Assembly: GCA_000419545.1 (NCBI GenBank)
Contig: ATTF01000009.1
Location: 1 to 41,062 of the forward strand
Direction of reading: 5' to 3'
Source of the DNA: Candidatus Pelagibacter ubique HIMB058
GTDB lineage: Bacteria; Pseudomonadota; Alphaproteobacteria; Pelagibacterales; Pelagibacteraceae
DNA: 41,062 bases
The notes under the pieces are model-generated. The model saw only the letters and a program-made list of their open reading frames with translations, was not told the origin of the DNA and made no database searches. Positions 3,035-41,062 of the stretch are shown here, piece by piece (position 1 is the stretch's first letter; each line of letters opens with the position of its first letter). The position numbers and the translations under genes were made by a program.

Positions 3035-3792
3035 TAATATTCCTCGTAACTTAGATTGTTAAAAACTTTTTTATCTCTTTTTCGATATATTGCTCCCTTT
3101 TTCCATAAAAGTAATGCTTCAAAATGTATCGAACTTATTATTTTTAAAGTCATCAAAGGATATCTAAAAAAATTTATCAATAATTGTTTAAAATTAAATT
3201 CCTTTTTATCACCAGTTTGTGTAGCAGTTAGCACTGTTCCCTCTGCATCTGTTTGCTTGATCATTACCGATAATCTTTGATTTGGGTCAATTAATTTAAA
3301 ATTATAGAACGTTTCCATATCCATAAATGGAGATACATAAAATTTTTTTTTGCATTTCTGTTTTAATTCTTCGCCATCTTTTATTTTAAAGATATATGTA
3401 TGTTGCTCATTAAATGTATTTTTAACTTCATAAAATATTGACTTTAATTTATCATTTTCATAACAGTAGAAAATACTTAGAGGGTTGAAAACGTAACCAA
3501 AAATTCTAGGGTAACAAAGTATTTTTATTTTAGAAATATTGCCTTCTATTTTATATTTTTTGAGATTGGATATTACCCATTTTTTAAGACAGTTTCCGTC
3601 TCTATCACCATGATCTTTATTGTAAAAACTGAAAATATTGAATTTGTTATGTGAAAAAATACTTATAGATTTATCTAATTGTTTAATTTCGTCTAGATCA
3701 ATGAATAATGAAAAAGTTTTGTAATTAAGGAAATGTTTTACAGGTTTAAATCTTGTGTGGTTTACCTCACCATTATATATACAAGAGTTCAT
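3034..3792 (-). CDS. DUF1365 domain protein, lipid-modification cluster
   Basis: A 252-aa protein beginning MNSCIYNGEVNHTRFKP, the characteristic DUF1365 N-terminus, with 'YPRIFGYVFNPLSIFYCY' in the middle, a hallmark of the family. I chose the ATG at 3790-3792, which overlaps the upstream TGA by one base (TGATG), rather than the TTG one codon upstream. No clear transmembrane segment or signal peptide. The family has no proven reaction, but it co-occurs with COG2907 oxidoreductases and CFA-like methyltransferases across Proteobacteria, often under RpoE/ChrR control. No rpoE or chrR is present in this window. The identification is strong; the function is unknown. Confidence 0.82.
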   Translation of the reverse strand: MNSCIYNGEVNHTRFKPVKHFLNYKTFSLFIDLDEIKQLDKSISIFSHNKFNIFSFYNKDHGDRDGNCLKKWVISNLKKYKIEGNISKIKILCYPRIFGYVFNPLSIFYCYENDKLKSIFYEVKNTFNEQHTYIFKIKDGEELKQKCKKKFYVSPFMDMETFYNFKLIDPNQRLSVMIKQTDAEGTVLTATQTGDKKEFNFKQLLINFFRYPLMTLKIISSIHFEALLLWKKGAIYRKRDKKVFNNLSYEEY

Positions 3793-5018
3793 CAAGTTTT
3801 AAATTTATTTACTAATTCAATAGATGATTTTAATCCATCTTCATGAAAACCGTAACCAAAATAACTTCCACAAAACCAAGTTCTTTTGTGGCCTTGTAAT
3901 AAGTGGAGTTCATTTTGTAATTTAGTATTTTCTGAATTTAAATAAGGATGAGTAAAGTTAACCTTCTTAATTACAAATTCATCACTAATTTTATGAATTG
4001 GGTTCAAAGTTAAGAAATAATTTTTATCAGTATTCAAGTTTTGCAGTTTGTTTAACCAGTAAGTGATGCAAGTTTTCTCTCCATCAGAAATTGAGTTCCA
4101 GCTTGACCAGGCTCTTTTTCTTTTAGGCATTAACCGTTTATCTGTATGCAAATAAGCTTGGTTTTTAACGTAAATAAATTTACTTAATATTTTTTTTTCA
4201 TTTTCAGATGGATCTTCTAATAAATTTAAACTTTGATCTGCATGAGAAGCTAATATTACATGATCGTAATCCAAATATTCATTGCCTATCATTATTCTTA
4301 CATTGTCATTACTTCTGGATACTTTGCTAACTTTGTAATTTTTGAAGATTTCACCACTTATTCTCTCGGTAACTTTTTTAACATATGCCCTACTTCTATT
4401 AGTAACAGTATACCATTGAGGTCTATTTTTTAGTTTAAACAAACCGTGATTTGTAAAAAAATCTAAAAAAAATTTTAATGGCATTTTCTTAGCTTTATCA
4501 AATGGCATTGACCAAATTGCAGCTACCATCGGGATTATATGATATTCTATAAAATATTTTGATAATTTTTTTTTATTTAAAAAATTACCTAATGTTTCTT
4601 CTTTAGTTTCATCATTAAGATATGTAGGTGCAGCTTTATAAAATGAAATTATTTCTCTAATCATTTTAATATAACTTAAATTTAACAAATTTAATTTATT
4701 TGCAAAAATTCCACCTAATCCTGTTCCGCTATATTCTATATTAGAATTTTTAATAGAAACTGCAAATGACATATCACTTTTTTCATAAGGAACTTTTAAT
4801 TCTTCAAAGAAATTAATTAAATTTGGATAAGTGTGTTTGTTAAAAACAATAAAACCAAGATCTACTGGTGTAGTTTTGTCATTTTCTTTTATATCGTAAG
4901 TATAAGAGTGTCCTCCAAAGTGATCGTCTTGTTCAAATAAATCAACTTTAAATTTTTTTGAAAGAAAGTACGCTGAAGATAAACCTGAAATTCCTGAGCC
5001 AATGACTGCAATTTTCAT
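3792..5018 (-). CDS. FAD-dependent oxidoreductase (COG2907-like) of the CFA cluster
   Basis: A 408-aa flavoprotein. It opens with a dinucleotide-binding motif GSGISG at residues 7-12, followed by an acidic strand end (DLFEQDDHFGGHS) typical of amine-oxidase/desaturase-like flavoenzymes, and ends with 'GSYFGYGFHEDGLKSS', the C-terminal FAD-contact block. The family is a predicted NAD/FAD-binding protein found next to DUF1365 and CFA methyltransferases; an action on fatty acyl chains (oxidation or desaturation) is suspected from context only. It starts just 8 nt after gcvP ends and has no clear Shine-Dalgarno sequence, so it may be expressed as a tail of the glycine-cleavage operon. Confidence 0.8.
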   Translation of the reverse strand: MKIAVIGSGISGLSSAYFLSKKFKVDLFEQDDHFGGHSYTYDIKENDKTTPVDLGFIVFNKHTYPNLINFFEELKVPYEKSDMSFAVSIKNSNIEYSGTGLGGIFANKLNLLNLSYIKMIREIISFYKAAPTYLNDETKEETLGNFLNKKKLSKYFIEYHIIPMVAAIWSMPFDKAKKMPLKFFLDFFTNHGLFKLKNRPQWYTVTNRSRAYVKKVTERISGEIFKNYKVSKVSRSNDNVRIMIGNEYLDYDHVILASHADQSLNLLEDPSENEKKILSKFIYVKNQAYLHTDKRLMPKRKRAWSSWNSISDGEKTCITYWLNKLQNLNTDKNYFLTLNPIHKISDEFVIKKVNFTHPYLNSENTKLQNELHLLQGHKRTWFCGSYFGYGFHEDGLKSSIELVNKFKT

Positions 5019-15174: not shown

Positions 15175-17850
15175 TTAATTAGCTAGCATGTTTCTTAAAA
15201 CATACTGAAGAATTCCACCATTTTTGTAATACTCAACCTCATTTGCTGTATCAATTCTGCAAAGCATTTGAATTTTTTTACTCGTTCCGTCTTTATATTT
15301 AATCTCACAAATAACTTCTTGTCTTGGTTTTACTCCCTTATCAATATCGACAACTGATATTAATTCTGCACCAGTGATATTTAATTTCTTTCTGTCAAAA
15401 CCTTCTTTGAATTGAAGAGGTAAAACACCCATTCCAATTAAGTTTGATCTATGAATTCTCTCAAAGCTTTCAGCTAATACAGCTTTAATTCCAAGAAGCT
15501 TTGTTCCTTTAGCTGCCCAGTCTCTTGATGATCCAGTTCCGTATTCTTTTCCAGCTACAACTACTAAATCATTATTTCTTTTCTTGTATTCCATTGCAGC
15601 TTCATAAACACTCATTACTTTTCCATCTGGTTGTAATGTTGTAAATCCACCTTCTGTACCTGGTGCCATTTCATTTCTTATTTTAATATTTCCAAACGTT
15701 CCTCTCATCATTACTTCGTGATTTCCACGTCTAGCACCGTAAGAGTTAAAATCTTTTTGTTGAATTTGATGCTTCATAAAATAATCACCTGTAGGACTTT
15801 CTTTTTTAATGCTTCCTGCTGGTGAAATGTGATCTGTTGTAACTGAGTCAGCTAATAGCAATAATATTCTTGCATCATTAATTGGTTTAAAGCCTTCTGG
15901 TTGATCTGGTAGATCATCAAAAAATGGTGGTCTCTTTACATATGTAGAGTTAGCTTCCCAATTATAAATATCACTATCTGTTGTATTAATAGCTTGCCAT
16001 TCTTTAGGACCCTCTGAAACATTTGAATATCTTTGTTTGAACATATCAGCGTTTAAAGAACTCAACATTAAATCTTCAATTTCTTTATTGCTTGGCCAAA
16101 TATCTTTTAAGAAAACATCTTTGCCATCTTTATCTTTACCAAGTGCAGTCTTGTACATATCGAAATTCATATTACCCGCTAAAGCGTATGCAACAACAAG
16201 CGGCGGAGATGCTAAGTAATTTGCTTTAACATCTGGATTTATTCTTCCTTCAAAGTTTCTATTTCCAGATAAAACAGACACTGCATAAAGATCGTTTTTA
16301 TTTATCGCATCTGAAATGTTTTGATTTAAAGGTCCTGAGTTACCAATACATGTTGTGCAACCGTAACCAACTAAATTAAATCCAAGTTCATCTAAATATT
16401 TATTTAAACCAGCTTTCTCTAAATAATCTGTTACAACTTGAGATCCTGGAGCTAAAGAAGTTTTAACCCAAGGTTTTACTTTTAATCCTTTTTCATGAGC
16501 TTTCTTCGCTAATAAACCTGCTCCAATTAGAACACTTGGATTAGATGTATTTGTGCAAGATGTTATTGCTGCAATTACAATATCACCATCTTTTACGCTG
16601 AAGTCTGTGCCTTCAACTTTAGCTTCGATAGCTTTATCTCTTTTTGCATTTTCTTTATAAACTTTTGCAAAAGCAGTTGAAGCTTCTGTTAATAGAACTT
16701 TATCTTGTGGTCTCTTAGGACCTGAAATGCTTGTAACAACTGTGCTTACATCCAATGATAAAGTATCAGTGAACACCACATCATTACTTGCCCAGAAACC
16801 TTGTTCTTTTGAATATTTTTCTACTAATTCAATTGTTTCTTTATCTCTACCAGATAATTTTAAATATTTTAGTGACTCGTCATCAACCGGAAAGAAACCA
16901 CATGTTGCACCATACTCTGGAGCCATGTTTGCGATCGTTGCTCTATCAGCTAATGTTAAATTTTTTAAACCTTCACCATAAAATTCTACAAATTTTCCAA
17001 CAACACCTTTTTTTCTAAGCATTTCAACTATTGTTAAAACTAAATCTGTTGCCGTTGTTCCTTCTTTTAATTTTCCTTTTAGCTCTACTCCAACTACTTC
17101 AGGGATTAACATTGAAATAGGCTGACCTAACATTGCAGCTTCAGCTTCAATACCACCTACTCCCCATCCTAAAACAGAAAGTCCGTTAACCATTGTTGTA
17201 TGACTATCAGTTCCTACTAATGTATCTGGGTAAGCGTATAAATCATTTCCACTTTTAGATGACCAAACAACTTTAGATAAATATTCTAAATTTACTTGGT
17301 GACAAATTCCTGTTCCAGGAGGAACAACCCTAAAATTATCAAATGCCTTTTGACCCCATTTTAAAAATGAATAACGCTCACCGTTTCTTGAAAATTCTCT
17401 CTCAACATTTTGATTGAATGATTTACCTGATGCATATTCGTCTACCATTACAGAGTGGTCTATAACTAAATCAACCGTTGATAACGGATTAATTTTCTCA
17501 GGGTCCTTATTTTTATTTTTTACAGCATCTCTCATAGCAGCTAAATCAGCAACCGCTGGGATACCTGTATAATCCTGCATTAACACTCTTGCAGGCCTGT
17601 AAGCTATTTCTGTGTTTGATTTTTTATCTTTAAGCCAATCTTTTAAAGCTAAAATTTGTTTTTTATCTACAGTTACATCATCCTCATATCTTAGAAGATT
17701 TTCTAATAAAACTTTAAGTGATTTAGGTAGTTTAGATATTCCCTCTAAACCATTTTTTTCTGCAGTCTTTAAATTGAAATATTTATAATCTTTTCCTGAT
17801 GAATTTAATGTGTCTAGTGATTGGAATGAGTTTTTACTATTAAATTTCAT
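15175..17850 (-). CDS. acnA: Aconitate hydratase A
   Basis: An 891-aa aconitase of the AcnA/IRP type. The three iron-sulfur ligands are visible at Cys432 (ITSCTNTSN) and Cys498/Cys501 (GCTTCIGNSG). Other landmarks are 'TDSHTTMVNGLSVLGWGVGG' at about 214-233 and the swivel-domain 'GKEYGTGSSRDWAAKG' near residue 770. It converts citrate to isocitrate in the TCA cycle and may hydrate methylaconitate for the coupled prpD-like gene. It starts 3 nt after the LysE gene ends. Intact. Confidence 0.97.
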   Translation of the reverse strand: MKFNSKNSFQSLDTLNSSGKDYKYFNLKTAEKNGLEGISKLPKSLKVLLENLLRYEDDVTVDKKQILALKDWLKDKKSNTEIAYRPARVLMQDYTGIPAVADLAAMRDAVKNKNKDPEKINPLSTVDLVIDHSVMVDEYASGKSFNQNVEREFSRNGERYSFLKWGQKAFDNFRVVPPGTGICHQVNLEYLSKVVWSSKSGNDLYAYPDTLVGTDSHTTMVNGLSVLGWGVGGIEAEAAMLGQPISMLIPEVVGVELKGKLKEGTTATDLVLTIVEMLRKKGVVGKFVEFYGEGLKNLTLADRATIANMAPEYGATCGFFPVDDESLKYLKLSGRDKETIELVEKYSKEQGFWASNDVVFTDTLSLDVSTVVTSISGPKRPQDKVLLTEASTAFAKVYKENAKRDKAIEAKVEGTDFSVKDGDIVIAAITSCTNTSNPSVLIGAGLLAKKAHEKGLKVKPWVKTSLAPGSQVVTDYLEKAGLNKYLDELGFNLVGYGCTTCIGNSGPLNQNISDAINKNDLYAVSVLSGNRNFEGRINPDVKANYLASPPLVVAYALAGNMNFDMYKTALGKDKDGKDVFLKDIWPSNKEIEDLMLSSLNADMFKQRYSNVSEGPKEWQAINTTDSDIYNWEANSTYVKRPPFFDDLPDQPEGFKPINDARILLLLADSVTTDHISPAGSIKKESPTGDYFMKHQIQQKDFNSYGARRGNHEVMMRGTFGNIKIRNEMAPGTEGGFTTLQPDGKVMSVYEAAMEYKKRNNDLVVVAGKEYGTGSSRDWAAKGTKLLGIKAVLAESFERIHRSNLIGMGVLPLQFKEGFDRKKLNITGAELISVVDIDKGVKPRQEVICEIKYKDGTSKKIQMLCRIDTANEVEYYKNGGILQYVLRNMLAN

Positions 17851-18447: not shown

Positions 18448-18890
18448 TAATGAGGTTTTCTAAATCTATCGTGACAAGCTGAACAATTGCTCCACATTAA
18501 ATCTTTTTGTGCGGCCCTTAAGTCTTCTGCAGTATCTATAGATGAAGCTAACTTAATCATATCATCAGAAGCTTTTTGCATCAAAGCATTGAATTCATCT
18601 TTATTTTCCCAAATACTTGGGAGTGCTTCAGTATTAAAACCTTCTTTTGTATTATCAGGAAAATAGTCTAGTAATTTTTTATAGTTCTCCGACATTTTTT
18701 TCATTAAAGGTTTTGCCTCTTCTATCTTATTAGACTTTAATAAAATCGAAATCTTTTTAGCTGTTTGATAGTTTTCGCTAAACATTGCTTTTCTCCCCTT
18801 AATAATTTCTTCTACACTTTGTGCAAAAGACAATTGGGAAAAACTAAATGAAAAAATTATAGCGGAGATTAAAATTTTAATTTTTTGCAT
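18447..18890 (-). CDS. Periplasmic cytochrome c'-like (c-556) protein
   Basis: A 147-aa protein with a signal peptide ending near SFAQ (residue 24), a largely helical middle, and a single haem-binding motif CSACH at residues 136-140, right at the C-terminus. A C-terminal CxxCH on a four-helix bundle is the signature of the cytochrome c'/c-556 family. It would work in the periplasm as an electron carrier or gas-binding protein. It lies 4 nt after the DUF411 gene and opposite a cytochrome b561 gene, suggesting a small redox module; the partner is not proven. Confidence 0.82.
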   Translation of the reverse strand: MQKIKILISAIIFSFSFSQLSFAQSVEEIIKGRKAMFSENYQTAKKISILLKSNKIEEAKPLMKKMSENYKKLLDYFPDNTKEGFNTEALPSIWENKDEFNALMQKASDDMIKLASSIDTAEDLRAAQKDLMWSNCSACHDRFRKPH

Positions 18891-18894
18891 AAAT

Positions 18895-19380
18895 CTATAT
18901 TGTCATGAATATAGAATATTTTCCATCAACAAGTTGATAAATAACAAATGGTTCTTCTTTATCTCCAGGCATACCGGGTGTACCAATTGGCATTCCAGGT
19001 AAAGCAATGCCGTCAATATCAGGTTGTTCTTTTAATAATTTTTCAATGGCTTCAAGCGGAACATGCCCCTCGATGAAATATTTTCCCATAACTGTAGTAT
19101 GACAAGATTGCATCTCAAGAGGTATATTATATTTTTGTTTTACATCATGTAGGTATCTTAAATCTGTTTGTTTAACTTTAAATTTTTCTTTTTCCAAAAA
19201 TTTAACGTAACCATAACAACAGCCACAAGAAGGTGTTTTAAAAACTTCAACATTATATTCATTAGCATTTGTTATAGCTAAAGCATTTTGTTTATTTGAA
19301 TCAAAGAAAAAGTAAAATAAAGTTACTGAAAGAATTGCTAGTACAGTTGTTCTTAAAAGATTTTTTTTTATAAATTTCAT
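18895..19380 (-). CDS. DUF411 metal-binding protein, membrane-anchored or exported
   Basis: A 161-aa protein with an N-terminal hydrophobic helix (about 10-26) that may be a signal or an anchor. The mature part begins with 'VEVFKTPSCGCCYGYVKFLE' (Cys52, Cys54, Cys55) and continues with QSCHT (Cys93, His94), 'YFIEGHVPLEAIEKLL' and 'GIALPGMPIGTPGMPG', all diagnostic of DUF411. The Cys/His set suggests metal, probably copper, binding in the periplasm; family members are often near copper-resistance or cytochrome genes. Here it is followed after 4 nt by a c'-type cytochrome, and its start faces cytochrome b561 across 19 nt. Confidence 0.85.
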   Translation of the reverse strand: MKFIKKNLLRTTVLAILSVTLFYFFFDSNKQNALAITNANEYNVEVFKTPSCGCCYGYVKFLEKEKFKVKQTDLRYLHDVKQKYNIPLEMQSCHTTVMGKYFIEGHVPLEAIEKLLKEQPDIDGIALPGMPIGTPGMPGDKEEPFVIYQLVDGKYSIFMTI

Positions 19381-31669: not shown

Positions 31670-31868
31670 TTCGCATGTCAAATTTAGTCGACCTGATTGC
31701 AAGATTATTAATTTCAGCTCTATTCTTAATATCAGCTTATAATAAAATTTTTAGTATTGATGGTACGATGAGTTGGATGGAAGGTTTTGGTATTCCAGGA
31801 ATGCTTTTATATCCAACTATTGTTTTAGAGATTATCTTACCTTTATTTATCATCGTTGGTTACAAAGC

Positions 31869-31926
31869 TCAGCTATCTGCTGGGTTACTTGCAATCTTTT
31901 GTATCGCGACAGCTTTCATATTTCAT
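31869..31926 (+). repeat. 58-bp direct repeat, copy 1 (doxX)
   Basis: It runs from tcagctatctgc to ctttcatatttcat and is identical to 33004-33061. It is in its native doxX context on the left, and the sequence switches to livH immediately after its last base. The offset between the copies is 1135 bp. Confidence 0.97.
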
Positions 31927-32298
31927 ATTTCAACAACAGCGCAAAATGCAAGAGCCGCAAAAATTTTAGGTGTAGATACTGAAAAAGTTTATGCTGCAAC
32001 TTTTGGTATTAACGCAGCACTATGTGGAATTGCTGGAGCTTTAATTGCAATAACTTTAACTCTTCACCCGTATGTAGGACTTCCATATACAGTTAGATCT
32101 TTCATGATTGTAATTGTTGCAGGACTTGGAAATTTACCAGCAGTAGCACTTTCAGGTATGGGCTTAGGAGTTTTTGAAGAATTTGCAGATTATATTTTAG
32201 GTACAGAATTTAGAATTGGTGCAGTGTTCTTGTTACTAGTTTTCATATTAGTTTATAGAAGATTTAAACTTGCGAAAAAAAGGGAGTATTTAAAGTAA
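31927..32298 (+). pseudogene. livH 3' fragment inside doxX
   Basis: Reads as the C-terminal about 120 residues of a LivH permease: 'NARAAKILGVDTEKVYAATF' (the ATPase-coupling loop), then 'LHPYVGLPYTVRSFMIVIVAG' and 'LGNLPAVALSGMGLGVFEEF', ending in a basic tail and TAA. It has no start of its own and is fused in frame to the DoxX N-terminus by the junction. It differs from the intact livH at 28862-29773, so it is not a copy of that gene. It is probably the 3' end of the livH that belongs just beyond the right edge, upstream of the livM at 40613. The in-frame DoxX-LivH fusion is considered an artefact. Confidence 0.82.
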
Positions 32299-33008
32299 AT
32301 GAGCAAGATAAAACAAAAAGATCTAATTTTATATTCAGCCTTAATTATTTTTGGGCTTTTTGCTCCATTTATATTTTCTGCATATAAAGTTCAGCTTACA
32401 TATCTTTGTATCTTAATTGTTCTAGCTATGACTTGGAATTTGCAAGGCGGAGAGATGGGTTACAATACTTTTGGAAATATCCTTTTCTATGGTCTTGGAA
32501 TGTATTTATGTGCCTCAGTTCAAGTTGGAATGTTTTTTCCTTTAGCAGAATGGACTGAAAGCGGTGGAGAGAAAACATTTGTTCATACTACAGCACAATA
32601 CTTTCAAGGTATGGGTGTCGGTTTATTAGTTGCAGCTATAGTTCCAACTCTTGTGGCTGGTGCCATTGGTTATGCAATTTTAGGTTTGAGAGGTCATTAC
32701 TTTGCCATTTGTACTTTAGGTTTAGGAATTGCAGGTGGTGAAATCGCAGGTGGAATAGAAATCATTGGAGCAGGTCAAGGATTTACCACACCTCCGTTCC
32801 CAGCAGAGATAGTAGACAATGAAGCAAGAGGAGAGTTTTTCTACTTTTTAAGTTTTGTATTACTTATCGCAGCATTTGTTTTCGTTAAATATATTTACGG
32901 ATCAAGATTTAAATTAATTTTAAATGCAATCAGAGACAATGAAGACAAAGCAGAAGCAATGGGTATTCAAACTATGAAATATAAAATTACCGGTTGGATG
33001 TGTTCAGC
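32299..33008 (+). pseudogene. livM 5' fragment inside doxX
   Basis: Encodes the first about 236 residues of a LivM permease, starting MSKIKQKDLILYSALIIF, with 'LAMTWNLQGGEMGYNTFGNILFYG' style core motifs, 'LGLRGHYFAICTLGLGIAGG' and 'LILNAIRDNEDKAEAMGIQ'. It then switches at tgttcagc into the second doxX repeat. Its last 95 bp equal the reverse complement of the window's last 95 bp. Joined to 40967-40613 it forms a complete 354-aa LivM in frame, so these are two parts of one gene, here separated. Confidence 0.88.
32914..33008 (+). repeat. 95-bp inverted duplication, internal copy
   Basis: Identical over 95 bp to the reverse complement of 40968-41062. Identity ends exactly at the livM/doxX junction on one side and at the window edge on the other. 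Confidence 0.97.
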
Positions 33009-33061
33009 TATCTGCTGGGTTACTTGCAATCTTTTGTATCGCGACAGCTTTCATATTTCAT
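33004..33061 (+). repeat. 58-bp direct repeat, copy 2 (doxX)
   Basis: Second copy of 31869-31926, followed by the native doxX 3' end. Its first five bases (tcagc) are shared by livM and doxX and form the microhomology at the return junction. Confidence 0.97.
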
Positions 33062-33203
33062 TTTGATTTCAACGATCAAATGCAGACTATAGCTTTTCTA
33101 AAAAATATTGGCTTAGCTGGCGGATTTTTATTCATCGTAGCTAATGGAACAAAAGAATGGGCTATTGAGAGAGAAAAGAAATACGTGAGACTTTAGTAAG
33201 TTT

Positions 33204-39882: not shown

Positions 39883-40616
39883 TATTGTGCTCCAAGATAA
39901 GCATCAACAACTCGCTTATCATTTTTAATTTGATCAGGTGTTCCTTCTGCTAGCATTTTACCGTGAGCTAAACAGAATATTTTTTGCGCTAAGCTCATTA
40001 TTACTCTCATGTTATGCTCAATTACAAGTAAAGTAATTCCATAGTCAGAGTTAATCTTAATTAATCTATCTATAATTCCGTTTATTAAAGTTGGGTTAAT
40101 TCCAGCTGTTGGCTCGTCTAATAAAAGCATTTTAGGTTCATTCATTAAAGCCATAGCAAGTTCTAATAATTTTTGTTGTCCAAATGACAAGTCCCCTGCT
40201 CTAAGTTTTCTTTTTTGATAAAGACCAACAAAGTTTAAAAGATTTTCAGCTTTTTCTGTTAAATCTGCTGGAATTTTTGCAAAAATAAATCCTGAGTCAC
40301 TGGCTTTGTGGCTGATTAACATGTTCTCAACACAGTTAAGTTTTGTGTAAATTTTTGTTTGTTGAAACGTTCTAAGTAATCCTAGTTTTGCAACTGCAGG
40401 CACAGGCATCTCAGATACTTCTGTATTATCAAAAACAATTGAACCTTGATCGATTGGATGAGTTCCAACTATAGAATTAAATAATGTTGTTTTACCTGAA
40501 CCATTTGGGCCAATTAATCCAACGATAGATCCTTGTTCAACTGAAACAGATATATCTACGTTAGCTTTAACCCCGCCAAAAGATTTACTTACGTTTTTAA
40601 CTTCTAATATACTCAT
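39882..40616 (-). CDS. livG: LivG-type ABC transporter ATPase (second system)
   Basis: A 244-aa ATPase. Walker A GPNGSGKTT is at about 35-43, 'LLRTFQQTKIYTKLNCVENM' is the LivG Q-loop, DLSFGQQKLLELAMAL the ABC motif and MLLLDEPTAGINP the Walker B. The C-terminus 'DKRVVDAYLGAQ' is typical LivG. It overlaps livM by 4 nt (ATGA) and livF by one base. Urea-type UrtD is an alternative, but nothing urea-specific is seen. Confidence 0.92.
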   Translation of the reverse strand: MSILEVKNVSKSFGGVKANVDISVSVEQGSIVGLIGPNGSGKTTLFNSIVGTHPIDQGSIVFDNTEVSEMPVPAVAKLGLLRTFQQTKIYTKLNCVENMLISHKASDSGFIFAKIPADLTEKAENLLNFVGLYQKRKLRAGDLSFGQQKLLELAMALMNEPKMLLLDEPTAGINPTLINGIIDRLIKINSDYGITLLVIEHNMRVIMSLAQKIFCLAHGKMLAEGTPDQIKNDKRVVDAYLGAQ

Positions 40617-41062
40617 TTTAATTCTACCGATGCTTTTCTATCTTTTTCATCTATAACTTCGCCAAATCTTTCAGGATATTTTTCTCTTAGCCATCCCATT
40701 AAACCTTCTGGGAAATAAATTACGATCACTACAATTAAAACCCCAAGTGCAACGTATTGCCAACCTAATATTAAAGTCCATAAACCTTCTTTAAAAATAT
40801 GGAATAAAGTTGCTCCAATGACTGGTCCCCATAAAGTTCCTTTACCTCCAAGGATTGCCATTAAAACCATGAACACTCCCATTTCTCTTCCATCAAATGC
40901 AACATCAGTCGAGTCGATATAACCAATTAATCCACCCATAATTCCTCCAGCAAGTCCGCAGAAAAACGCTGAACACATCCAACCGGTAATTTTATATTTC
41001 ATAGTTTGAATACCCATTGCTTCTGCTTTGTCTTCATTGTCTCTGATTGCATTTAAAATTAA
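40613..41062 (-). CDS. livM: LivM-type permease, C-terminal 149 residues (cut by right edge)
   Basis: The frame is open to the last base of the window. It encodes 'LILNAIRDNEDKAEAMGIQ' (the ATPase-coupling loop) and the final three spans with 'LMAILGGKGTLWGPVIGATL' and 'YFPEGLMGWLREKYPERFGE'. The N-terminal two-thirds are missing here but are found as the + strand fragment at 32299-33008; the two share 95 bp and together give 354 aa. It is the permease of the second Liv-type system, coupled by 4 nt to livG. Confidence 0.92.
   Translation of the reverse strand, partial: LILNAIRDNEDKAEAMGIQTMKYKITGWMCSAFFCGLAGGIMGGLIGYIDSTDVAFDGREMGVFMVLMAILGGKGTLWGPVIGATLFHIFKEGLWTLILGWQYVALGVLIVVIVIYFPEGLMGWLREKYPERFGEVIDEKDRKASVELK
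40968..41062 (-). repeat. 95-bp inverted duplication, copy at window end
   Basis: Reverse complement identical to 32914-33008. Its outer end is the last base of the window, as expected if the window ends at an assembly-graph branch point. Confidence 0.97.

Follow-up and report, generated by a model that had tools for sequence, protein, structure and literature searches.

The stretch of DNA examined here, referred to as the window, is an entire contig (C9, 41,062 bp) of a genome of 1.115 Mb assembled in 59 contigs, with an assembly completeness of 98.16% and contamination of 0.07%. The readable assembly leaves out contigs C45-C59 (approximately 25 kb, N). On this contig the doxX gene was found to be split, with approximately 1.08 kb of sequence from the 3' part of livH and the 5' part of livM situated between two copies of an exact 58-bp direct repeat with a spacing of 1135 bp. 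The ORF starting at position 31675 encodes an in-frame fusion of DoxX and a BPD_transp_2 domain, the latter corresponding to the C-terminal part of LivH, and the ORF that follows this fusion encodes a truncated LivM. The features of the locus, together with those of the native liv operon at the right end of the contig, are as follows.

31675-31926, plus strand: 5' part of doxX, 84 codons (PF07681 DoxX, aa 6-84, E 9e-17), joined to the 3' part in 36/36 relatives
31869-31926, plus strand: 58-bp direct repeat, copy 1
31926-31933, plus strand: filler at the left junction, not native livH, made up of a tandem slip of TATTTCA (31919-31925 / 31926-31932) and one base
31934-32298, plus strand: inserted 3' part of livH, inverted relative to the native liv operon (protein identity to LivH of relatives mostly 95-100%; PF02653)
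32299-33003, plus strand: inserted 5' part of livM (99% identical at the protein level to LivM of L039, the closest relative; PF02653)
33004-33008, plus strand: 5-bp microhomology tcagc at the return junction, shared with native livM at the contig end
33004-33061, plus strand: 58-bp direct repeat, copy 2
33004-33196, plus strand: 3' part of doxX including the repeated 58 bp, up to the stop codon
39097-40616, minus strand: native ABC ATPase genes following livM (livG and livF by homology; PF00005, PF12399)
40613-41062, minus strand: 3' remainder of native livM, cut by the contig end (PF02653 positions 157-268)
40968-41062, minus strand: exact 95-bp contig-end overlap with 32914-33008, interpreted as an assembly-graph fork between native livM and the putative chimeric path

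The initial annotation had described a perfect 58-bp direct repeat around livH-livM sequence within doxX, and had proposed that removal of 1135 bp restores a DoxX of 128 aa. The repeat is exact, and joining of the flanks with the 1135 bp taken out yielded an unbroken protein of that length. As a background for the repeat, 789 kb of homologous sequence around doxX in relatives (overlapping loci) was used, which contained no exact repeat of at least 40 bp in either direct or inverted orientation; a 58-bp exact repeat is therefore far beyond chance.

The left junction required some revision. A switch in frame from doxX to livH had been placed at 31926/31927; the fusion itself stands, but 31927 is not the first position of liv sequence. 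The window encodes HISTTAQ at this point versus AIRATAQ in 34/34 loci of relatives covering the spot (some genomes being counted twice), indicating that approximately 31926-31933 is junction filler and that liv sequence begins at approximately 31934. Native livH at this position falls in an assembly gap, such that with regard to complementarity at the left junction only the 7-bp slip is readable. At the return junction, the 5-bp tcagc microhomology reported previously was recovered on comparison with native livM at the contig end.

The insert derives, in inverted orientation, from the liv operon of the genome itself, which is broken at the end of the same contig; this adds to what the initial annotation had described. 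The last 95 bp of the contig are an exact reverse complement of part of the insert (32914-33008), and the contig ends there. The 5' part of livH forms the end of another contig (C30), with approximately 92 bp absent between it and the insert when compared to relatives. If the 95-bp overlap is set aside, the readable assembly contains the livH 3'/livM 5' stretch once, namely within doxX, and the native operon is interrupted on both sides of that stretch. The insert lies on the plus strand and the native liv operon on the minus strand of the contig; discounting the 1135-bp insertion, the native distance between doxX and liv is approximately 8.0 kb for the return junction and 9.0 kb for the departure. 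No intact doxX allele was found in the readable assembly (contigs C45-C59 lying outside it).

Comparison with other SAR11 doxX loci, which the initial annotation had put forward as a check, was made among species representatives other than this genome, with doxX compared in 36 of them. Most of these relatives with doxX have isolate names of the single-cell (AG-) type. The gene was uninterrupted in 36/36 and the insertion was present in 0/36. Among the same relatives, livM was located on the strand opposite doxX in 29 (with livH also so in 28), at a distance of 6.9-9.5 kb. In the closest relative (L039), doxX is intact and the native order is kept, with protein identities of 92% for DoxX, 100% for the LivH part and 99% for the LivM part.

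The fork at the end of the window is not the only one in this assembly. Contig-end overlaps of exactly 95 bp were identified at six contig ends (C9, C12, C14, C16, C29 and the circular C42), and the sharing of this exact length points to a single k-mer size and to forks of the assembly graph. An overlap of 95 bp is compatible with a de Bruijn k of 95, or with K = 96 if overlaps have a length of K-1. A 25/55/95 assembler setting was not found in a literature search; a Velvet/Allpaths-LG route has been described for freshwater SAR11 single cells (PMC4053759).

Further inverted joins were also identified. Contig C16 (L089) contains one at 15339-15342 (region 15248-15433) with a 4-bp overlap, AGCA. 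Its two sides are on opposite strands approximately 12-13 kb apart in relatives, in which they are not contiguous, and both native continuations of the join are contig ends (those of C16 and C14) with exact 95-bp overlaps. Contig C10 contains an inverted join at 18859-18865 with an overlap of 6-7 bp, and relatives have its two sides on opposite strands with approximately 18 kb between them; the start of this contig (1-163) is an exact reverse complement of its positions 18859-19021 (163 bp).

The same contig also carries a split sufC (L083, 3107-4231), in which sufC sequence runs to 3418, is followed by an insert of approximately 303 bp and resumes at 3723. An 86-bp stretch of sufC is directly repeated (3333-3418 / 3723-3808), and position 3722, at the second junction, is an N. 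In relatives, the sequence of this insert is located on the opposite strand, 15 kb away. The architecture is the same as that of the split doxX, a direct repeat with an inverted insert from nearby, and the doxX structure is of the same kind as the sufC structure. No second sufC was found elsewhere in the genome. A bacterium that depends on SUF should not survive the loss of sufC, and a broken sufC would hardly leave such a cell viable; at least the sufC structure is therefore not expected to be real.

A number of other observations were made on the contigs of this assembly. Contigs C12 (32340-32614) and C29 (11279-11530) terminate with a jump back in direct orientation, by 180 and 157 bp respectively, with exact 95-bp overlaps, for which a tandem duplication or a direct chimera are the options. 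Unmerged exact contig-end overlaps of 132-1115 bp were found for C2/C38, C15/C21, C4/C14, C7/C20, C26/C28 and C25/C41, with an N immediately preceding the 1115-bp overlap of C38 with C2. Contig C42 (L114, 1-3694) is a circular contig of 3.6 kb with a 95-bp terminal overlap that encodes a RepL-like replication protein (a Firmicute plasmid family) and a NikA/MobC-like protein. It is probably a contaminant plasmid, and no near match to it was found among a plasmid collection. On C14 (L087, 14423-16995), a 50-bp direct repeat, one copy of which is within a tRNA-Met gene (16919-16995, minus strand), surrounds approximately 2.5 kb of a variable region with two ORFs, one having an HNH-like C-terminal part as judged by eye. 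This repeat was considered as a further chimera and dropped, as its association with the tRNA-Met gene and a variable region resembles a real small integrated element.

The split doxX is very probably an in vitro chimera that arose during whole-genome amplification (multiple displacement amplification, MDA) and was built into the contig; it is almost certainly not a biological feature. This agrees with the initial annotation, which had considered two template switches of a type typical of MDA chimeras and had also allowed for a natural replication template switch. An in vitro origin is favoured by the inverted donor approximately 8-9 kb away, the short microhomology and the intact doxX of 36/36 relatives, as well as by the exact 95-bp forks and the additional inverted joins of the same assembly, including that through the only sufC found. 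From the mostly single-cell names of the relatives and the chimera signature, we infer that the DNA was amplified by MDA. One molecule probably made both switches.

The known properties of MDA chimeras are in keeping with this. They are described by a model in which displaced 3' ends prime on displaced 5' strands in their vicinity (Lasken and Stockwell 2007, PMC1855051), with 85% of chimeras being inverted, 83% of inversions joining sites less than 10 kb apart and complementarity of at least 2 bp occurring in 76.8% (PMC1855051), and with overlaps peaking at 6 nt (Tu et al. 2015, PMC4595205). In the window, the second segment is inverted relative to its genomic orientation, the segments are approximately 8.0 and 9.0 kb apart (6.9-9.5 kb in relatives), the return junction has a complementarity of 5 bp (TCAGC), which is within the 2-21 nt of such chimeras, and joins of the same type are present in the same sample on C16 and C10.

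In the proposed sequence of events, a displaced nascent 3' end in doxX would slip by 7 bp and then prime on the liv operon in single-stranded form, approximately 8-9 kb away and in inverted orientation. The strand-displacing polymerase would copy approximately 1.07 kb of livH-livM, after which the strand would re-prime on doxX via TCAGC, 57 bp upstream of its departure, causing 58 bp of doxX to be doubled. The assembler would then have taken the chimeric path and used the sole copy of the liv stretch on it, with the native liv contigs stopping at or near that stretch.

Several points weigh against an MDA chimera. The readable assembly shows no intact doxX, a genuine duplication would leave the same 95-bp fork, and two double-switch structures (doxX and sufC) are present in one assembly although this class is rare; reads with at least two switches do occur, at approximately 3-4% of chimeric read pairs, much more rarely than single switches (Tu et al. 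2015, PMC4595205). In a variant of the amplification artefact, one chimera would lead from doxX into liv and a second from liv into doxX, each by a single switch, and the assembler would have combined them into one path; no molecule would then carry both junctions, and the resulting contig would look the same. MDA yields single inverted chimeras far more often than any other chimeric product (PMC1855051, PMC4595205), and the N at C10 3722 marks a parallel junction, that of sufC, bridged without clean sequence. Such a variant would however require independent departures from doxX within 58 bp and entries into liv within 1.1 kb of each other, and it is given a minor share of the confidence placed in an amplification artefact.

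It is very unlikely that the structure is a genuine rearrangement in the cell, by which template switching or microhomology-mediated repair would have put an inverted partial livHM into doxX with the liv operon remaining intact. Microhomology-mediated template switching in nature also leaves filler and microhomology, a real duplicate would likewise collapse in a short-read assembly to leave a fork, and doxX is not obviously essential. Against this, the rearrangement is missing from all 36 relatives, including the closest one, and the assembly has other private inverted joins, one of which runs through the only sufC found. An inherited rearrangement would be expected in independent genomes, and the count among the relatives was zero. 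More improbable still is a real replicative template switch within one SAR11 cell lineage that put the inverted partial livHM into doxX, with the events on C10 and C16 marking unusually frequent templated inversions.

Pure assembler error with no underlying chimeric DNA can be given less credence again. The native operon is broken precisely at the stretch used, and Ns are located at joins in C10 and C38, as an error of this kind could produce; a mis-join in a k-mer graph, however, needs long shared sequence, and the junctions of doxX share approximately 5 bp, with filler at the left one. The sequence across the junctions must therefore have been present in the reads. Insertion of a mobile element or gene cassette by transposition or attachment-site recombination is scarcely conceivable and was rejected: the insert is flanked by a direct repeat, as in a target-site duplication, but 58 bp is far longer than the usual target duplications of transposons, and the insert is a truncated piece of a host operon without the element genes (a transposase or integrase), terminal inverted repeats or attachment site of such an element. 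As the initial annotation had stated for transposases and terminal inverted repeats, profile matches of the insert ORFs gave no transposase or integrase and no protein family other than BPD_transp_2 and the fused DoxX part, and the repeat listing of the window gave no terminal inverted repeat at the insert.

An origin of the split doxX by in vitro amplification means that an assembly of high completeness and low contamination may still show genes as disrupted (doxX, sufC) and a transport operon as broken when they are not. The evidence supports the view that the doxX split is not a biological feature and that its value lies in a signature by which single-cell genomes could be screened before gene loss or fusion is inferred from them, namely an exact contig-end overlap of k length that is reverse-complementary to an internal site, combined with short microhomology and a gene that is intact in relatives.

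Similarities can be found between the doxX case and events of the MMBIR/FoSTeS type, as it involves the insertion of sequence templated by a locus nearby, together with microhomology and a short duplication at the flanks. It differs from these in the lack of inheritance or recurrence among relatives and in the presence of similar joins at assembly-graph forks. With the inverted chimeras described for MDA (PMC1855051, PMC4595205) it shares an inverted donor less than 10 kb away, restriction to one assembly, and a 5-bp microhomology at one junction with filler at the other. Unlike most MDA chimeras, it returns to the same locus at both ends, whether by a double switch or by two chimeras, which places it in a minority class, and it persisted into an assembled contig.
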